Below, piece after piece: positions 9,596 through 48,655 of a DNA stretch of 64,000 bases. This DNA comes from Halococcus qingdaonensis (lineage in GTDB: Archaea > Halobacteriota > Halobacteria > Halobacteriales > Halococcaceae): NCBI RefSeq assembly GCF_024508235.1, contig NZ_CP101943.1, positions 1 to 64,000 of the forward strand, given 5' to 3'. A program made the translations under genes and the position numbers. The notes under the pieces are model-generated. The model worked only from the letters and a program-made list of their open reading frames with translations, ran no database searches and was not told the origin of the DNA. Each line of letters begins with the position of its first letter. Position 1 is the first letter of the stretch.

Positions 9596-9980
9596 ACCTG
9601 CGCTTTTCGGTCGCGAGTAAAGGCGTATCGAAGCAATTCCTGTCGATTTCACTGAACGGACGAGCGAACCTGGTTCGTGGTGTCCGTCTCCGGAGCTGAT
9701 TCTACCGCCACGAATCCCGATACAAACGAGAACCCGTTACCGCACCGCCACCGCCCACACACCTCCCCAACCGATTCGCTCGCTCCCTCCGGTCGCTCAC
9801 TCATCCCTCGCACGAGTCGTGCGCTTCGCGCACTCCCGCGCGCCACCGCCTCGCACTCTGGACGAATCTTCGATTCGCCGTTCTCGCCCGCCCGCAATGG
9901 CAACATTTGCACCAAGTATGGTGGTCTTTCGTGCCAAACGCGCGGGGTTTATACCGATGGGTGGCCGAGTGTCCGACGCT
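9596..9980. other. Intergenic region with hairpin cluster upstream of aconitase
   Basis: No gene is supported here; the open frames are low-complexity shadows. The right half is pyrimidine-rich (tcgctcgctccctcc type runs) and carries short perfect hairpins: 9810-9822 (gcacga / tcgtgc), overlapping 9819-9833 (gtgcgc, loop ttc, gcgcac), and 9863-9877 (cgaatc, loop ttc, gattcg). The aconitase promoter is at the right edge. Confidence 0.7.
9948..9953 (+). promoter_or_regulatory. TATA box of the aconitase gene
   Basis: tttata lies 28-33 bases before the ATG at 9981, the spacing expected for a leaderless haloarchaeal transcript. It selects 9981 over earlier in-frame codons. Confidence 0.65.
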
Positions 9981-11954
9981 ATGGGAACAACGCTGACGGA
10001 GAAGATCCTCGACGATCATCTGGTCGAGGGGGAGCTCGAAACCGGTGAGGAGATCGGGATCGACATCGACCAGGTGCTCACGCAGGACACCACTGGCACG
10101 CTCGTCTGGCTCCAGTTCGAGGCGCTCGGCCTCGACGAGGTCCAGACCGAACTCGCCGCCCAGTACTGCGACCACCAGACCTACCAGTTCGACTTCAAGA
10201 ACAGCGACGACCACCGCTTCCTCCGTTCGGCCGCCGGCACCTTCGGCGCACACTTCTCGCGCCCTGGTAACGGCATCTGCCACCAGGTCCACAAGGAGCG
10301 GTTCGCCGCGCCCGGCAAGACGATGCTCGGCAGCGACTCGCACACTCCGACCCCGGGCGGGATGGGCGAGCTCGCCATCGGCTCGGGTGGACTGGACGTC
10401 GCCGTCGCGATGGGCGGCGGTCCCTACTACATCGAGATGCCCGAGGTCGTCAACGTCCATCTCGAAGGCGAGCTCCCCGAGTGGGCGACGGCCAAGGACG
10501 TCATCCTCCACCTGCTCGGCGAGCTCTCCGTGAAGGGCGGCGTCGGCAAGGTGCTCGAATACACCGGTCCCGGTGTCGAGAACCTCTCGGTGCCCGAGCG
10601 GACGACGATCACCAACATGGGCACCGAACTGGGTGCCACGACCTCGATCTTCCCGACCGACGACCGTACTGAAGAATTCCTCTCGCGACTCGGCCGCGAG
10701 GACGAACACGTCGAGATCGGCCCGGACGACGACGCCGAGTACGACGACCGGATCGAGGTCGATCTGAGCGAGATCGAACCCCTCATCGCCACGCCGTCGA
10801 TGCCCGACAACGTCGTCCCCGTCGGCGAGGTCGCCGGCGAGGACGTCGATCAGGTCATCATCGGCTCCTGTACCAACGGTGCTTACGAGGACATCCTGCC
10901 CGGCGCGAAGATGCTCGAAGGCCGCGAGATCGACAAGCGCACCGAAATGATCGTCGCGCCCGGCTCGAAACAGGCCTCCGAACTGCTGGCCCGCGAGGGC
11001 TGGAGCGCCGAGATGATGGCCGCCGGCGTCAACTTCTCCGAGGCGACCTGTGGTGCCTGCATCGGCATCGGCCACGTGCCCGCCTCCGACTCGGTGAGTC
11101 TCCGGACGTTCAACCGCAACTTCGAGGGCCGCTCGGGCATCGAGGACGACTCGGTCTACCTCTGCTCGCCGGAGGTCGCCACGGCCTCGGCGCTCGCCGG
11201 CGAGATCGTCGACCCGCGCGACCTCGCCGAGGAGCTCGGCGATCTCGAGGACCCCGGCTTCGAGATGGCCGACACCTACGACGGCTCGGACGCCGACCTT
11301 ATCGCCCCCGACGAATCCGTCGACGACGGGCTGGTGAAGGGGCCGAACATCAGCGACGTTCCCCTAAAGGACCCGCTCGACGCCCACCTCGAGGGCTCGG
11401 CGCTGCTCAAGATGGGCGACAACATCACGACCGACCACATCATCCCTGCGACCCAGGACATCCTGATGTACCGGTCGAACATCCCGAAACTCTCGGAGTT
11501 CACCCTCTCGCGAGTGGACGACGAGTTCGCCCAGCGCGCGCTCGACGCCGACGGCGGCTTCCTCGTCGCCGGCGAGAACTACGGCCAGGGTTCTTCGAGA
11601 GAGCACGCCGCCCTCTGCCCGATGTATCTCGGCGTCGAGGGCGTCCTCGCACAGAGCTTCGCCCGCATCCACAAGGCGAACCTCTTCAACTTCGGCCTCC
11701 TGCCCCTGGAGATCGACGCCGACGCACAGGAGAACATCGCGGAAGGCGACGACATCGAGATCGTCGACGACGTCGAAGAAGCCGTCCGCTCCGGCCAGGA
11801 GGAGTTCACCATCCGCGTGAACGACGACTGGGAAACCACCGGCCTGCTCGACGCCTCCGAACGCGAGCGCGAGATCCTCGCCGACGGTGGCAAGCTGCCT
11901 CACACCAAAGCGCAGCAGAGCGGCTCCGGCGCTGCGGCCCCGGCTGACGACTAA
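9981..11954 (+). CDS. acn: Aconitate hydratase
   Basis: A 657-residue aconitase of the short archaeal/mitochondrial-like type, interconverting citrate and isocitrate in the TCA cycle. The [4Fe-4S] ligands are Cys near 297 (GSCTNGAYED) and the pair near 357 and 360 (ATCGACIG). Substrate motifs include GSDSHTPTPGGMGE (near 115) and, in the C-terminal swivel domain, GDNITTDHI (near 480) and ENYGQGSSREHA (near 533). The frame is open for 54 codons upstream, but the TATA box and conserved MGTTLTEKIL start fix ATG 9981. The gene is monocistronic, followed by a T-run and a dispersed repeat. Confidence 0.95.
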   Translation: MGTTLTEKILDDHLVEGELETGEEIGIDIDQVLTQDTTGTLVWLQFEALGLDEVQTELAAQYCDHQTYQFDFKNSDDHRFLRSAAGTFGAHFSRPGNGICHQVHKERFAAPGKTMLGSDSHTPTPGGMGELAIGSGGLDVAVAMGGGPYYIEMPEVVNVHLEGELPEWATAKDVILHLLGELSVKGGVGKVLEYTGPGVENLSVPERTTITNMGTELGATTSIFPTDDRTEEFLSRLGREDEHVEIGPDDDAEYDDRIEVDLSEIEPLIATPSMPDNVVPVGEVAGEDVDQVIIGSCTNGAYEDILPGAKMLEGREIDKRTEMIVAPGSKQASELLAREGWSAEMMAAGVNFSEATCGACIGIGHVPASDSVSLRTFNRNFEGRSGIEDDSVYLCSPEVATASALAGEIVDPRDLAEELGDLEDPGFEMADTYDGSDADLIAPDESVDDGLVKGPNISDVPLKDPLDAHLEGSALLKMGDNITTDHIIPATQDILMYRSNIPKLSEFTLSRVDDEFAQRALDADGGFLVAGENYGQGSSREHAALCPMYLGVEGVLAQSFARIHKANLFNFGLLPLEIDADAQENIAEGDDIEIVDDVEEAVRSGQEEFTIRVNDDWETTGLLDASEREREILADGGKLPHTKAQQSGSGAAAPADD

Positions 11955-11958
11955 CGAC

Positions 11959-11964
11959 TTTTTT
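11959..11964 (+). terminator. T-tract terminator after aconitase
   Basis: Six T residues five bases after the stop codon form a typical archaeal transcription terminator. An imperfect hairpin (ggggtt / aacccc arms) follows at once. Confidence 0.5.
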
Positions 11965-12250
11965 ACTTCGGGGGTTCGCGCTCCCTGCGGTCGCGCTCAA
12001 CCCCTCGCAAAAACCTCGACTAAAAACTCCCGCTCACTCGCCTGCGGCTCGTTCGCGGTGAACCGCGCTCGTTTCACTCGCGCGGATGCTGATGCTCTCC
12101 GCCCAGCACGGCAACCGCACCGCAGAAGCCCTCAGTCGCTTCGCTCCCTCGCCCTTCATCCACCAGGGCCGCGACCGCAGACCGCCGCCGCAACCGCCGG
12201 CCGTACCCGCTGCCGGGCAGGCTTTTCACGCCGGATCGCCTGCGACAGGC
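11965..12250. repeat. Dispersed intergenic repeat, copy A
   Basis: No gene is supported. The stretch matches 23465-23703 along most of its length. Shared blocks in the same order are: a T-run, an inverted repeat opening with gggg, gcaaaaa, ctaaaaactcccgctc (ccaaaaactcccgctc in copy B), ggtgaaccgcgctcgtt, cactcgcgcggatgct, accgcagaa, and cgcccttcatcc. Both copies sit immediately 3' of a plus-strand metabolic gene. The inverted repeat at its left end is imperfect here and perfect in copy B. Confidence 0.7.
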
Positions 12251-12631
12251 ATGGACTGTCCCGACTGCGGGGCCGGCACGGTCGCGTTTGCGGTTCCCGA
12301 CGGACTCGACACGCTCGATGAACCCGCGGCCGCGCTCTGTACGCACTGCCTCGCGCTCCATTCTGTCGAGAAGAGCGACGCGAACTCTGATTTCACGGCC
12401 GTGAGTGACGACTTTCCGACCGGCTCGGCGGCAGTACCGATGGCGCTCGCGATCGGACTGCTCGATTCGCTCGTGCTCCATCGAGAGACCGTCGAGGCGC
12501 TACTCGAACGGGTCGAGCGGGCTGGCACGGACCCGCTGCTCGTCATCGATAGACTGGCAAATGATCCGACGCTCGATCCGAAAACCGACCTCGCGACGCG
12601 TCGCCGACAGGTGGCGCAGTTGCGTGATTAA
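12251..12631 (+). CDS. DUF6276-like zinc-ribbon protein
   Basis: A 126-residue protein starting MDCPDCGAGTVAF, with a second Cys pair CTHC near residues 34-37, making a four-Cys zinc ribbon. The rest (about 60-126) is helical and contains TGSAAVPMALAIGLLDSL and a basic/acidic C-terminal helix. I place it in the haloarchaeal family catalogued as DUF6276, from memory; no function is established. ATG 12251 begins the ribbon; the frame is open upstream through the repeat but only as shadow. It overlaps the convergent TackOD1-like gene by four bases. Confidence 0.65.
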   Translation: MDCPDCGAGTVAFAVPDGLDTLDEPAAALCTHCLALHSVEKSDANSDFTAVSDDFPTGSAAVPMALAIGLLDSLVLHRETVEALLERVERAGTDPLLVIDRLANDPTLDPKTDLATRRRQVAQLRD

Positions 12632-22524: not shown

Positions 22525-23457
22525 ATGAGCGGTTTCGATGACATGGACGTCGACACGATCTGGATGGACGGCGAGTTCGTCGACTGGGACGAGGCACAGG
22601 TCCACGTCCTCACCCACGGACTGCACTACGGCTCGGGCATCTTCGAGGGCGTCCGCTGCTACGACACCGAGGAGGGCCCGGCGATCTTCCGCTGGGACGA
22701 ACACCTCGACCGGTTCTACAACTCCGCGAAACCCTACGACATGGAGATCGACCACTCGCGCGAGGAGCTCACCGAGGCGACGCTCGAACTCATCGAGCGT
22801 CAGGATCTCCAGTCGTGTTACATCCGCCCGCTGGCCTACTACGGCTACAACAGCCTGGGCGTGAGTCCACAGGACTGTCCCACCAAGACCGCCATCGCCT
22901 GCTGGCCGTGGGGCACCTATCTCGGCGAGGAGGCGCTCGAAAACGGCGTCGACGTGATGGTCTCGTCGTGGCGCAAACACGCCTCCAGCCAGGTCCCGAC
23001 GAACGCGAAGACCACAGGACTGTACGTCAACTCGATGCTCGCCGGTGAGGAGGCCCGCCGCAACGACTACGTCGAGGCGATCGTCCTCAACAAGGAGGGC
23101 AACGTCGCCGAAGGGCCGGGCGAGAACATCTTCCTCGTCAACGACGGCGAGATCTACACGCCCGGCCTCGCCGAGAGCATCCTCGATGGTATCACCCGCC
23201 GGACGGCCATCACGCTCGCGCGCGATCTCGGCTACACGGTCCACGACGAGGCAGCCATCAGCCGCGGCGAGCTCTACACCGCCGACGAACTGTTCTTCAC
23301 GGGCAGCGCCGCCGAGATCACCCCCATCCGTTCGGTCGACGACGTCACGATCGGCCCGGGCGAGCGCGGCCCCGTCACCGAGGAGCTCCAATCGAAGTTC
23401 TTCGAGGTCGTCGAACGCCGCACCGACGACTACGACGAGTGGTTCACCTACCCCTGA
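22525..23457 (+). CDS. ilvE: Branched-chain amino acid aminotransferase
   Basis: A 310-residue fold-type IV PLP enzyme that makes or degrades Leu, Ile and Val. The PLP Lys is near 162 in VPTNAKTTG; other signatures are HGLHYGSGIFEGVRCY (near 33-48), the GNVAEGPGENIF loop (near 193-204) and ELFFTGSAAEITP (near 256-268). Full length. A TATA box 28 bases upstream gives a leaderless message. Directly after its stop come a T-run, a strong hairpin and dispersed repeat copy B. Confidence 0.94.
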   Translation: MSGFDDMDVDTIWMDGEFVDWDEAQVHVLTHGLHYGSGIFEGVRCYDTEEGPAIFRWDEHLDRFYNSAKPYDMEIDHSREELTEATLELIERQDLQSCYIRPLAYYGYNSLGVSPQDCPTKTAIACWPWGTYLGEEALENGVDVMVSSWRKHASSQVPTNAKTTGLYVNSMLAGEEARRNDYVEAIVLNKEGNVAEGPGENIFLVNDGEIYTPGLAESILDGITRRTAITLARDLGYTVHDEAAISRGELYTADELFFTGSAAEITPIRSVDDVTIGPGERGPVTEELQSKFFEVVERRTDDYDEWFTYP

Positions 23458-23703
23458 AGCCCCACCTTTTTGCTGCGAGGGGTCGCCTGCGGCGACCCCC
23501 GCTTGCAAAAATCTGGACCAAAAACTCCCGCTCGCTCACTCCGTTCGCTCACGGTGAACCGCGCTCGTTCCACTCGCGCGGATGCTACACTTTCCGCACC
23601 GACCGCAGAACCCCTCGCTCCCTCACATCCGTTCGGTCGCTCGCCCTTCATCCGCCGAGGCCCCGCGCCGCAGCGCAACCGCCGCCGGCCGCCGCCCGGC
23701 GCT
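23458..23703. repeat. Dispersed intergenic repeat, copy B
   Basis: No gene is supported. This is the second copy of the repeat seen at 11965-12250, in the same orientation and again immediately 3' of a plus-strand metabolic gene. Long shared blocks include aaaaactcccgctc, ggtgaaccgcgctcgtt, cactcgcgcggatgct, accgcagaa and cgcccttcatcc. Copies differ by small indels (for example an extra cactccgttcgct near 23538 here), so they are diverged relatives rather than recent duplicates. It extends to the end of moeA2. Confidence 0.7.
23467..23499 (+). terminator. T-run and hairpin after ilvE
   Basis: ttttt at 23467-23471 is followed by a perfect 9-base stem, ggggtcgcc / ggcgacccc, with loop tgc (23479-23499). 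The order (T-run first) differs from bacterial terminators; the T-run alone is enough for archaeal termination. The hairpin is part of the dispersed repeat. Confidence 0.45.
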
Positions 23704-46969: not shown

Positions 46970-48265
46970 CTACGCCGTCGAACCTACGGAAATCTTTTGC
47001 TGGTACGCACGAACCTCATTGGGACGAGAGTGTGGTAGCTCTGACCATCGGTGGTCGTCCCACTTGAGGCGTGCAGGCCGTGCCATCGACCCAACTTCGG
47101 CGTTCGTCTGTTGTGCGAGGAACTTCGCCGAAGCGTCCAAATCGGCGTGTCCCTCGTAGCCGCACGGACACCAAAACGAATCGCCTGACCGAACGGTGTC
47201 CTCCCGTTCGCCACACTCGGGACATTCCCGCGTGGTGTTCGCTTCCGGTTTCACTTCGACTGTGATACCGAACTCGGCGGCAGTGTACGCGAGCCGGTTG
47301 ATGAACGCCCGGAACGCCCAGAAGTTGTGCGTCTTTGCGTTCACTTCGACCGACCAGTGCTTGTCGAGAACGCCCTTGAGAGCGCCGACGTACACCGTCG
47401 AAACGCCTTCGGAGTGTAGGCGCTCCATCAGGTCGCGTGCGAGAGCGTCCTGTGCGTGGTCGCGCCGTCGAGTCCGCCGCCGGTACAACCGCTGTATCCT
47501 GTCGCTCGAATACCGCCCTTCGCGGAGCTTCGATTGGTACTCGGCGATGTCGTGGGTCGTCTCGCGGAAGCGGTCGAACAGGTCGCGTCCCTCGTACAGC
47601 AGTTGTGTTCCGGTGGTCGTACTGCACGCAACGAGATTGTTTGCGCCCACATCCAGAGCGGCGGAGTCGTCCGCCAGTGGTGAATCCAGTCGAGAATCTT
47701 CGATTGTGACTGGTTGAATTGCTCTGAATTGGTCGCTCATCTCGTCGTAGTACAGTTCGAGCTGCCCGGCTTCGCCGTCCCACTTTGGGTCGCCGTGAAC
47801 GTCGAGACGGAGACGTTCGCGGTAGCCGATGTCGTACTCCTCTTTCAGTTGCTTCCCGACAGGGACATCGAGGATGGACTGTTCGCGGTTGCCCGACGCC
47901 CATCGGAGCGTGTACTGGTCACTCCGAATATACGTTCGCAACTCCCGTCCACCATCCTCGTTGCCCCAGTAGCCGGGAAGCCCGTTCGCTTCCCCGCTCT
48001 CTTTGAGCTTGAAGAACGAGCGCCACGCTTGGTCGTTCTTTCGCACTACCTGTTGGGCGGTCGCCGAACCGACGACACCTTTGTATTCGCCGTAGTGGTC
48101 GTCGGCTTCCCAAATCGGTGCGTCGATGTCCGGGTCGGTGAGATACTGTCGTCGCCCGTAGTTGGTTTCGTTCCACAGGGACGCGGAAGCGTCCAACAGC
48201 CGCCGAAGGCACTCCGCGTCCGATTCGGAGCGGGGAACGACCCGGAACGTATTGACTCGTCGCAT
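46970..48265 (-). CDS. tnpB: TnpB, IS200/IS605 RNA-guided nuclease, possibly inactive
   Basis: A 431-residue TnpB. RuvC I is [10 protein letters not shown] (near 202-211) with Asp; RuvC III is GHADLDAS (near 376-383) with Asp; a zinc finger (CPECG, then CPCG, about 351-371) precedes it. The RuvC II position reads [11 protein letters not shown] (near 296-306), where relatives have an acidic residue (VGDL or IEDL); here it is Ala. This would remove a catalytic residue, though the alignment is by eye. TnpB, guided by RNA from the right end, normally cuts DNA at the donor site to keep the element. Full length, 3 bases from tnpA. Confidence 0.85.
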
Positions 48266-48268
48266 GGG

Positions 48269-48655
48269 CTACGCGCGCCCCTCCTGCTGTTCTTGCTCTT
48301 TGATGTACTGTTCGATGGCATCCTTCGAGATGCTTCCGGCGGTCCCGACGTAGTACGAGCGCGTCCACTTGATGCGGTCGTGATTCCGCTGATTGTAGTA
48401 CCGTGCAGAGATGCCTTTGAGCCAGTTCACAAGCAGCGAGGGCGCGTTTTTCGGCGGACTCCCGACGAACAGATGAACGTGGTCTGGCATGATTTCGGCC
48501 TCGGCCAATTCGAGACCTTTGTCCTCGCATATCTCCTCGAAAATCGTTTCGAGTTGATTCTGTCTCATGCCAACGAGTACCGGCTGTCGGTACTTCGGCA
48601 CGAACACTATGTGGTAGTAGAGTTCGTAGACCGCGTGACGGGTACTCTTTGGCAT
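48269..48655 (-). CDS. tnpA: TnpA, IS200/IS605 Y1 (HUH) transposase
   Basis: A 128-residue single-strand transposase. The HUH motif is [10 protein letters not shown] (near 55-64), and the catalytic Tyr is in IEQYIKEQ (near 116-123). Its length and the RYYNQRNH...[10 protein letters not shown] segment are typical of IS200/IS605 TnpA, which cuts and joins the hairpin ends as a dimer. The TATA-like gcttaaacg lies about 28-34 bases upstream. It appears functional by sequence, so the element may still move even if TnpB is not active. Confidence 0.9.

Follow-up and report, generated by a model that had tools for sequence, protein, structure and literature searches.

The DNA directly behind the aconitase gene of Halococcus qingdaonensis carries one copy of a dispersed, apparently non-coding repeat that recurs throughout its genus. 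We best read the family as hairpin repeats anchored to transcription terminators, in what is probably a new variant of such dispersed repeats. Comparison of sequences establishes the family itself, its position behind genes, the grammar of its structure, the replacement of its modules and the breaks in gene order found at it. As a full explanation, a genus-wide terminator-anchored hairpin repeat that evolves by exchange between its copies has, in our judgement, about an even chance of being correct.

A repeat family across the genus Halococcus

We compared the sequence after aconitase (copy A, 11955-12250 of the window, the 64,000-nucleotide stretch of DNA that was analysed) with that after ilvE (copy B, 23458-23703). 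Their local alignment scored 156, while dinucleotide-shuffled versions of copy B reached a mean of 23 and a maximum of 37 against copy A (500 shuffles), and the reverse complement of copy B scored 21. Chance or low-complexity similarity is thereby ruled out, and the ordered similarity that the initial annotation had described, together with its suggestion to compare it with shuffled sequences, is borne out. A BLAST search of the whole genome, which it had also suggested, recovered copy B (E 9.6e-27, 75% identity) and at least 51 matching pieces, a lower bound as 40 of 121 candidates were scored.

The conserved box 2 of the repeat (CGCCCTTCATCCRCCAGG) occurred at 56 places in the genome with up to two mismatches, and 46 of these were exact. 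Allowing three mismatches raised the number to 63; the seven additional matches were left out of the count as chance, because the reversed-pattern control gives three. One of the 56 places (1263437) lies inside an apparent coding sequence and is probably a chance match, so that by this count about 55 are genuine family copies. The two copies originally proposed were thus a large undercount, and the extent implied by the blocks quoted for them was too short: the similarity reaches left to a T-run and a palindrome (H1).

By BLAST, the family was present in 10 of 10 Halococcus genomes searched, where 18 candidates were scored per genome and copy counts are therefore lower bounds. The aconitase is 98% identical to those of H. 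morrhuae and H. thailandensis. Of 391 genomes from the class Halobacteria, 13 held a stricter two-box pattern, which never turned up in reversed controls: the nine Halococcus genomes sampled each had 28-46 occurrences, and four genomes from a single other family had 1-5 apiece. A second subfamily with a different right half, marked by the box CCTCCCCAACCGATTCGCT, occupies 27 places in the genome at up to two mismatches (control 0); at its representative upstream of aconitase (9716..9850), we recognised no H1-H3 part.

Searches with blastn yielded no match to the repeat among 72,556 plasmid records or 50,697 phage records, ruling out an origin from the elements in either set. The Rfam 15 covariance models gave no match at E up to 1 in 11900-12300, and a known RNA family was likewise rejected as the identity of the repeat. 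A literature search, in which subscription journals and preprints were little covered, returned no description of the family.

Anatomy of the element and its place behind genes

The anatomy was read from 40 copies compared by eye and then from 56 copies. Following the stop codon, the element consists of a T-run, H1, an A-run block, the hairpins H2 and H3, box 1, the hairpin H4, box 2 and a variable tail (Table 1). In the left part, the stop codon is followed by a trinucleotide (N1N2N3), a C, a C or T, and a run of five to six T. Beyond it lies H1, which is bordered by a repeated ACY triplet and whose inner hairpin is exchangeable. The A-run block opens and closes with an A run; in between are two bases, the complement of N1N2N3 and a further three bases. 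Across three genomes, 122 of 136 measurable copies carry complementary trinucleotides to the left and right of H1, and six such pairings occur (CCA/TGG, GTA/TAC, GAA/TTC, CGA/TCG, GCA/TGC and GGA/TCC). The right part is built of H2, a TGAA link, H3, a spacer, box 1 (GAAGCCCTC), H4 and box 2, 3' of which an optional hairpin module (H5) precedes a CCGCAACCGCACCGC-like tail. One H1 (copy 2088676, L052) is a long G run followed by a long C run, either an extreme palindrome or an assembly artefact.

Table 1 Features of copies A and B and of the neighbouring second-subfamily half, in window coordinates
Feature	Position	Strand	Details
Copy A, whole element	11955..12210	+	3' of aconitase; from sequence, genome matches and 40-copy comparison; right end approximate, tail variable
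Copy A, core	11955..12026	+	CGA-C-T6 run, H1 palindrome, A-run block
Copy A, T6 run	11959-11964	+	
Copy A, A-run block	12009-12026	+	AAAAACCTCGACTAAAAA
Copy A, trinucleotide pair	11955-11957 and 12016-12018		CGA pairs with TCG
Copy A, hairpin H2	12030..12058	- (folded strand)	Watson-Crick pairs, GA/GA steps, GCA loop
Copy A, hairpin H3	12063..12085	-	CCGCGC-GA-GT-GAA-AC-GA-GCGCGG on minus strand
Copy A, conserved box 1	12125..12133	+	GAAGCCCTC
Copy A, hairpin H4	12134..12149	-	variable module between boxes
Copy A, conserved box 2	12150..12167	+	CGCCCTTCATCCACCAGG
Copy B, whole element	23458..23703	+	between ilvE (+, stop 23457) and convergent moeA-type gene (-, ends 23704)
Copy B, core	23462..23524	+	CCACC-T5, H1, A-run block
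Copy B, T5 run	23467-23471	+	
Copy B, A-run block	23507-23524	+	AAAAATCTGGACCAAAAA
Copy B, hairpin H2	23528..23554	-	
Copy B, hairpin H3	23559..23581	-	CCGCGC-GA-GT-GGA-AC-GA-GCGCGG on minus strand
Copy B, diverged box 1, H4 and diverged box 2	23608..23659	+	box 1 GAACCCCTC; H4 at 23617-23641; box 2 with 2 mismatches
Second-subfamily right half	9716..9850	+	directly upstream of aconitase; box CCTCCCCAACCGATTCGCT at 9762-9780

Both copies follow plus-strand genes in the same orientation, as the initial annotation had noted: copy A begins directly 3' of the aconitase stop codon (TAA, 11952-11954) and copy B directly 3' of that of ilvE, a class-IV aminotransferase gene (TGA, 23455-23457). Among the 45 measurable copies (those with both an A-run block and an ORF), 32 have a T-run that starts 3-12 nt past the stop of a long ORF, and 36 have one within 17 nt. 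A T stretch shortly past the stop codon, one defining feature of haloarchaeal T-run terminators, is thus present in these 32 copies. Three further copies lie directly 3' of tRNA genes in the same sense. Pfam matches were obtained for 21 of the 22 upstream genes scanned, many of them with housekeeping functions, including aconitase, citrate synthase, gyrB, aEF-2, RadA, thermosome, DnaJ and glutamyl-tRNA reductase.

On the downstream side, a simple GC3 gene caller placed 29 of the 56 genes in convergent and 27 in codirectional orientation. There is therefore no preference for convergent spacers, and termination between convergent genes was rejected as the sole role of the element. One copy (423459, L145) sits in the gap between gyrB and gyrA, and is also found there, with both flanks, in a distant Halococcus genome (G003). 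A strict terminator between these two genes would be unexpected, which counts against the termination reading.

Many other haloarchaeal genera have a shorter unit, CCACCTTTT-palindrome-CAAAANCTGGACCAAAA, at the ends of genes; among the 28 of 80 loci that were read, it was found 3' of aconitase in Haladaptatus, Halomarina, Halorientalis and Halobium. The core pattern CAAAANCTGGAYYAAAA, which requires four As before N and does not pick up the five-A form that is frequent in Halococcus, was detected in 34 of 116 haloarchaeal genomes and 19 of 45 genera, with no match in the reversed control. A T-run and a palindrome accompany it at most of the 20 places read. By eye, four loci in other genera (L306, L308, L311 and L312) seem to hold a tandem duplication of the short terminator unit that also takes in the final few dozen bases of the adjacent gene.

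We infer termination activity for the core, read as a two-way terminator, because it carries T-runs on both strands and T stretches serve in haloarchaeal termination; in H. volcanii, 95% termination was obtained with T5C (PMC7237163). The element resembles such T-stretch terminators in its T-run past the stop codon, and hairpins also lie near some of the 3' ends reported there (PMC7237163). A dispersed element with H1, an A-run block, boxes and exchangeable hairpins does not figure in the available portion of that account (PMC7237163).

Hairpins on the antisense strand

Read on the plus strand, the hairpins look irregular; their regularity emerges on the minus strand, which is antisense to the upstream gene. 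There they follow a grammar in which Watson-Crick dinucleotides alternate with GA opposite GA under a GNA triloop cap. We counted this grammar in 88 unique H4 hairpins of up to 45 nt from three genomes, longer H4 being left out. Their cells comprised 550 Watson-Crick pairs, 18 GT, 4 AC or CA, 178 G.A and 17 other mismatches, with 82 tandem GA/GA steps among the G.A cells and GNA loops in 59 hairpins, under a scoring in which GA counts neither for nor against a hairpin and other mismatches are penalised, which favours GA to some degree. A 15-mer scan of the genome's own DNA, independent of this scoring, found 129 cases in which GA step and GNA loop share a strand and 4 in which they are on opposite strands (shuffles: mean 1.7, maximum 4), and AG/CT steps with matching loops not once. 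At 77 loci from other genera, the corresponding counts were 41 and 9 (shuffle mean 4.1). The hairpins are related to one another, so p values for this coupling are too small.

Covariation was examined in H3, using 37 distinct sequences that remained after 32 of 69 were removed as duplicates and 27 were left out for not being exactly 23 nt long. Cells were paired in 98.3% of cases versus 92.9% in shuffles, and double changes numbered 25 versus 8.8, a level reached in 0 of 500 shuffles. The GA columns were invariant, and 17 cells were of G.U type. The covariance analysis that the initial annotation had recommended thus detects a covarying structure, and its proposal of a conserved 3' RNA structure survives in part: the structure is real, but it folds stably on the opposite strand from the upstream transcript and is therefore no simple 3'-UTR of the aconitase or ilvE gene.

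The constant orientation behind each upstream gene and the housekeeping nature of those genes would also suit an element in the 3'-UTR of the upstream mRNA that folds on the plus strand and influences how stable the message is or where it is localised. We consider this very improbable, as the fold is weaker on the plus strand, where GA and GNA become UC and UNC, and as the structure is preceded by a T-run, a known haloarchaeal terminator (PMC7237163).

Under RNA parameters, the minus strand folded better in 47 of 47 H2+H3 blocks and 41 of 51 H4 blocks; under DNA parameters, it did so in 46 of 47 and 43 of 51, respectively. Individual copies behaved less regularly. With DNA parameters, the minus-strand optimum of copy A differed from the predicted fold; with RNA parameters, the expected H4 hairpin of copy A was not formed, and the H2+H3 block of copy B folded no better than shuffles (z -0.37). 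The energy models as computed here do not settle whether DNA is the folded molecule.

In DNA, both GNA triloops and tandem sheared G.A pairs have unusually high stability. Mini-hairpins of the d(GCGAAGC) type, which are synthetic or short motifs, carry a GNA triloop closed by C-G, and this C-G-closed triloop is also the most frequent loop class in the repeat. Unlike these mini-hairpins, the repeat forms a genomic vocabulary with tandem GA steps. The GNA triloops, and the apparent exchange of hairpins as DNA modules, lead us to favour DNA over RNA, and we best read the hairpin array as a single-strand structure on the antisense strand.

An unlikely alternative is a structured RNA transcribed from the minus strand, either the 3' end of convergent genes or an antisense or small RNA, with the U-runs UUUUUAGUCCAGGUUUUUG as its terminator. 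It would account for the consistently better minus-strand fold of the H2+H3 blocks under RNA parameters, for the G.U-type cells in H3 and for the order of hairpin and then T-runs in the minus sense. It sits poorly with the mere 29 of 56 downstream genes that are convergent and with loops that are GNA triloops rather than GNRA or UNCG tetraloops; nor was there an Rfam match, and by eye we noticed no AT-rich promoter in the GC-rich tail.

Conserved positions and replaced hairpins

In H. morrhuae, both flanks were orthologous at 48 of the 56 copies, and these flanks were 93.4% identical. Of the remaining copies, four had one or a discordant flank and four had none in this incomplete draft assembly, one of these probably being a chance box match. 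Box 2 was 95% identical between the species and the A-run block 93%, whereas H4 was 50% identical over the alignment and fully identical in only 4 of 46 cases. Such wholesale indels and hairpin swaps between sister species fit non-coding DNA.

For each hairpin, we asked whether it was nearer to its ortholog or to a non-orthologous copy. The non-orthologous copy was nearer for 34 H4 and the ortholog for 6 (3 ties, n=43); the corresponding numbers were 27 and 9 for H1 (4 ties, n=40), 18 and 2 for H3 (6 ties, n=26), and 18 and 9 for H2 (1 tie, n=28), the last not significant (p 0.12). As the hairpin vocabulary is small, chance similarity can explain part of these counts, but it can hardly explain composite hairpins of 40 nt and more. 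Among such long H4, 17 of 21 were nearer to another locus than to their ortholog, and seven lay at 2-4% distance from another locus while differing from the ortholog by 31-73%. Exact donors were rare: 3 of 43 H4 were identical to a copy at another locus of the same genome. Alignments of orthologous copies showed mosaics and, at locus 501601, a hairpin tip in which a hairpin module of ~60 nt had been cleanly gained or lost. As judged from these alignments, the mobile parts are the hairpin modules inside the element, and the whole element keeps its position. Small composite modules of several kinds (about 50-60 nt) recur in hairpin tips across loci, as at copies 614138, 1302718, 1286736, 851549 and 1412257.

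The same patterns could arise in passive spacers, that is, ordinary terminator repeats homogenised by gene conversion whose hairpins have no role. Gene conversion is active in polyploid haloarchaea (PMC4056108), and the boxes are barely more conserved than the flanks (95% vs 93.4%). We nevertheless regard passive spacers as quite unlikely: the strong covariation and the coupling of GA and GNA on the same strand across different hairpins point to selection on the fold.

Gene-order breaks at the element

In comparison with a more distant species, breaks in gene order tend to fall at the element. The genome G003 carries 71 repeat copies. Of our 56 copies, 23 shared an upstream and 21 a downstream flank with it, and only four shared both, these counts being lower bounds because the downstream flanks were under 1 kb. 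Under the stricter rules behind these figures, an impression that the element follows its upstream rather than its downstream gene was abandoned.

In 11 pairs of loci chosen for a shared upstream gene and compared over ~10 kb, collinearity ran upstream for one to eight genes and stopped at the element in eight. Adjacency across the element was conserved in 3 of 11 pairs, two of which had been chosen because both flanks matched, versus 33 of 46 adjacencies on the upstream arm without an element (Fisher p 0.012). Ten of the 71 G003 copies matched flanks of H. qingdaonensis elements on both sides. Five were parental and five recombinant, their two sides matching different copies, where 0.4 would be expected for random partners among an assumed 2,700 genes. 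One of the five recombinants (L230) involves two neighbouring copies and may reflect a local event.

Comparison with mobile elements and other known repeats

REP and BIME sequences of bacteria are short, dispersed, imperfect hairpins in intergenic and often 3' positions, present in tens to hundreds of copies. The repeat is like them in these dispersed hairpins and positions, and unlike them in being a composite of about 250 nt with a T-run core, tandem GA and GNA triloops, whose hairpins are swapped at fixed loci. No RAYT-type transposase was found: the sole Y1_Tnp gene belongs to an IS605 pair with TnpB. This IS605-type element lies within the window (46970-48655) and encodes TnpA (Y1) and TnpB (OrfB, with a Cas12f1-like TNB domain). 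A Pfam search (Y1_Tnp) for a transposase that might serve the repeat found this one Y1 gene of the IS200 type in the whole genome. By eye, the repeat has no IS605-like ends and the ends of the single IS605 element are unlike it, so a link to IS605 transposition was rejected.

The PATEs and SMRs of Haloquadratum walsbyi are palindrome-rich, non-coding and without target duplication, and SMRs insert into PATE palindromes (PMC3119063). Our repeat, also haloarchaeal, shares all of this. PATEs differ in having IS605-like ends and in including strain-specific insertions (PMC3119063); in our repeat, the whole element mostly keeps its place behind stop codons, and it is inner modules that move. On the sequences compared, the repeat works partly like REP, PATE and SMR elements but lacks the IS605-like ends and the RAYT-type transposase that mark PATE and REP/RAYT systems.

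The initial annotation had suggested a non-autonomous mobile repeat. In the usual sense this was not supported, given the positions shared with H. morrhuae, the short distance to stop codons, and the lack of target duplication and of a matching transposase; the compared copies also showed no common termini or target-site duplication of the MITE kind. An element of PATE, REP or MITE character that prefers terminators and is moved by an IS200/IS605-type transposase via single-stranded hairpins would fit the single-strand character of the hairpins, the one TnpA gene, and the modules nested in hairpin tips without obvious target duplication, for which there is one empty/filled pair and which resemble SMRs entering PATE palindromes in Haloquadratum (PMC3119063). 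We think this origin unlikely, as 48 of 56 positions are shared with H. morrhuae on both flanks, stop codons are close by, the whole element has no defined termini or target duplication, and the genome's IS605 element has unlike ends.

Proposed mechanism and implications

In the explanation that we prefer, the copies of a terminator-anchored repeat would evolve by exchanging sequence with one another. The left part of the element (T-run, H1 and A-run block) would be a bidirectional transcription-termination unit a few bases past the stop codon, related to the shorter unit that occurs across haloarchaea. To its right, H2, H3, box 1, H4, box 2 and the tail would make up a hairpin array that folds on the antisense strand, most likely as single-stranded DNA, with tandem sheared G.A pairs and GNA triloops lending it stability. 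Copies would stay at their loci over species time, while hairpin modules would be copied between loci, small modules would insert into hairpin tips, and whole chromosome arms would occasionally be exchanged at the element. As the boxes are near-identical and hairpins are present, we propose ectopic recombination between copies and infer it over other copying processes. Gene conversion, which is active in polyploid haloarchaea (PMC4056108), would be the simplest exchange machinery, with the hairpins as active participants or passengers.

A more far-reaching idea, which we also rate as unlikely, is that a vocabulary of single-stranded-DNA hairpins shared by haloarchaea, built of tandem sheared GA steps and GNA triloops, forms a dedicated exchange substrate, with cassettes hopping between fixed, terminator-linked docking sites. 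If true, these docking sites would double as preferred points of chromosome rearrangement.

Haloarchaeal intergenic DNA contains many short GCTCGCTTCGCTCGC-like phrases, and the tandem-GA/GNA reading makes them predictable one-strand hairpins. The family offers a natural experiment, with structure being replaced again and again at constant positions, and it provides a concrete candidate for the cause of gene-order breaks in Halococcus. If the exchange does proceed via single-stranded hairpins, the element would be a directly testable recombination substrate in archaea.
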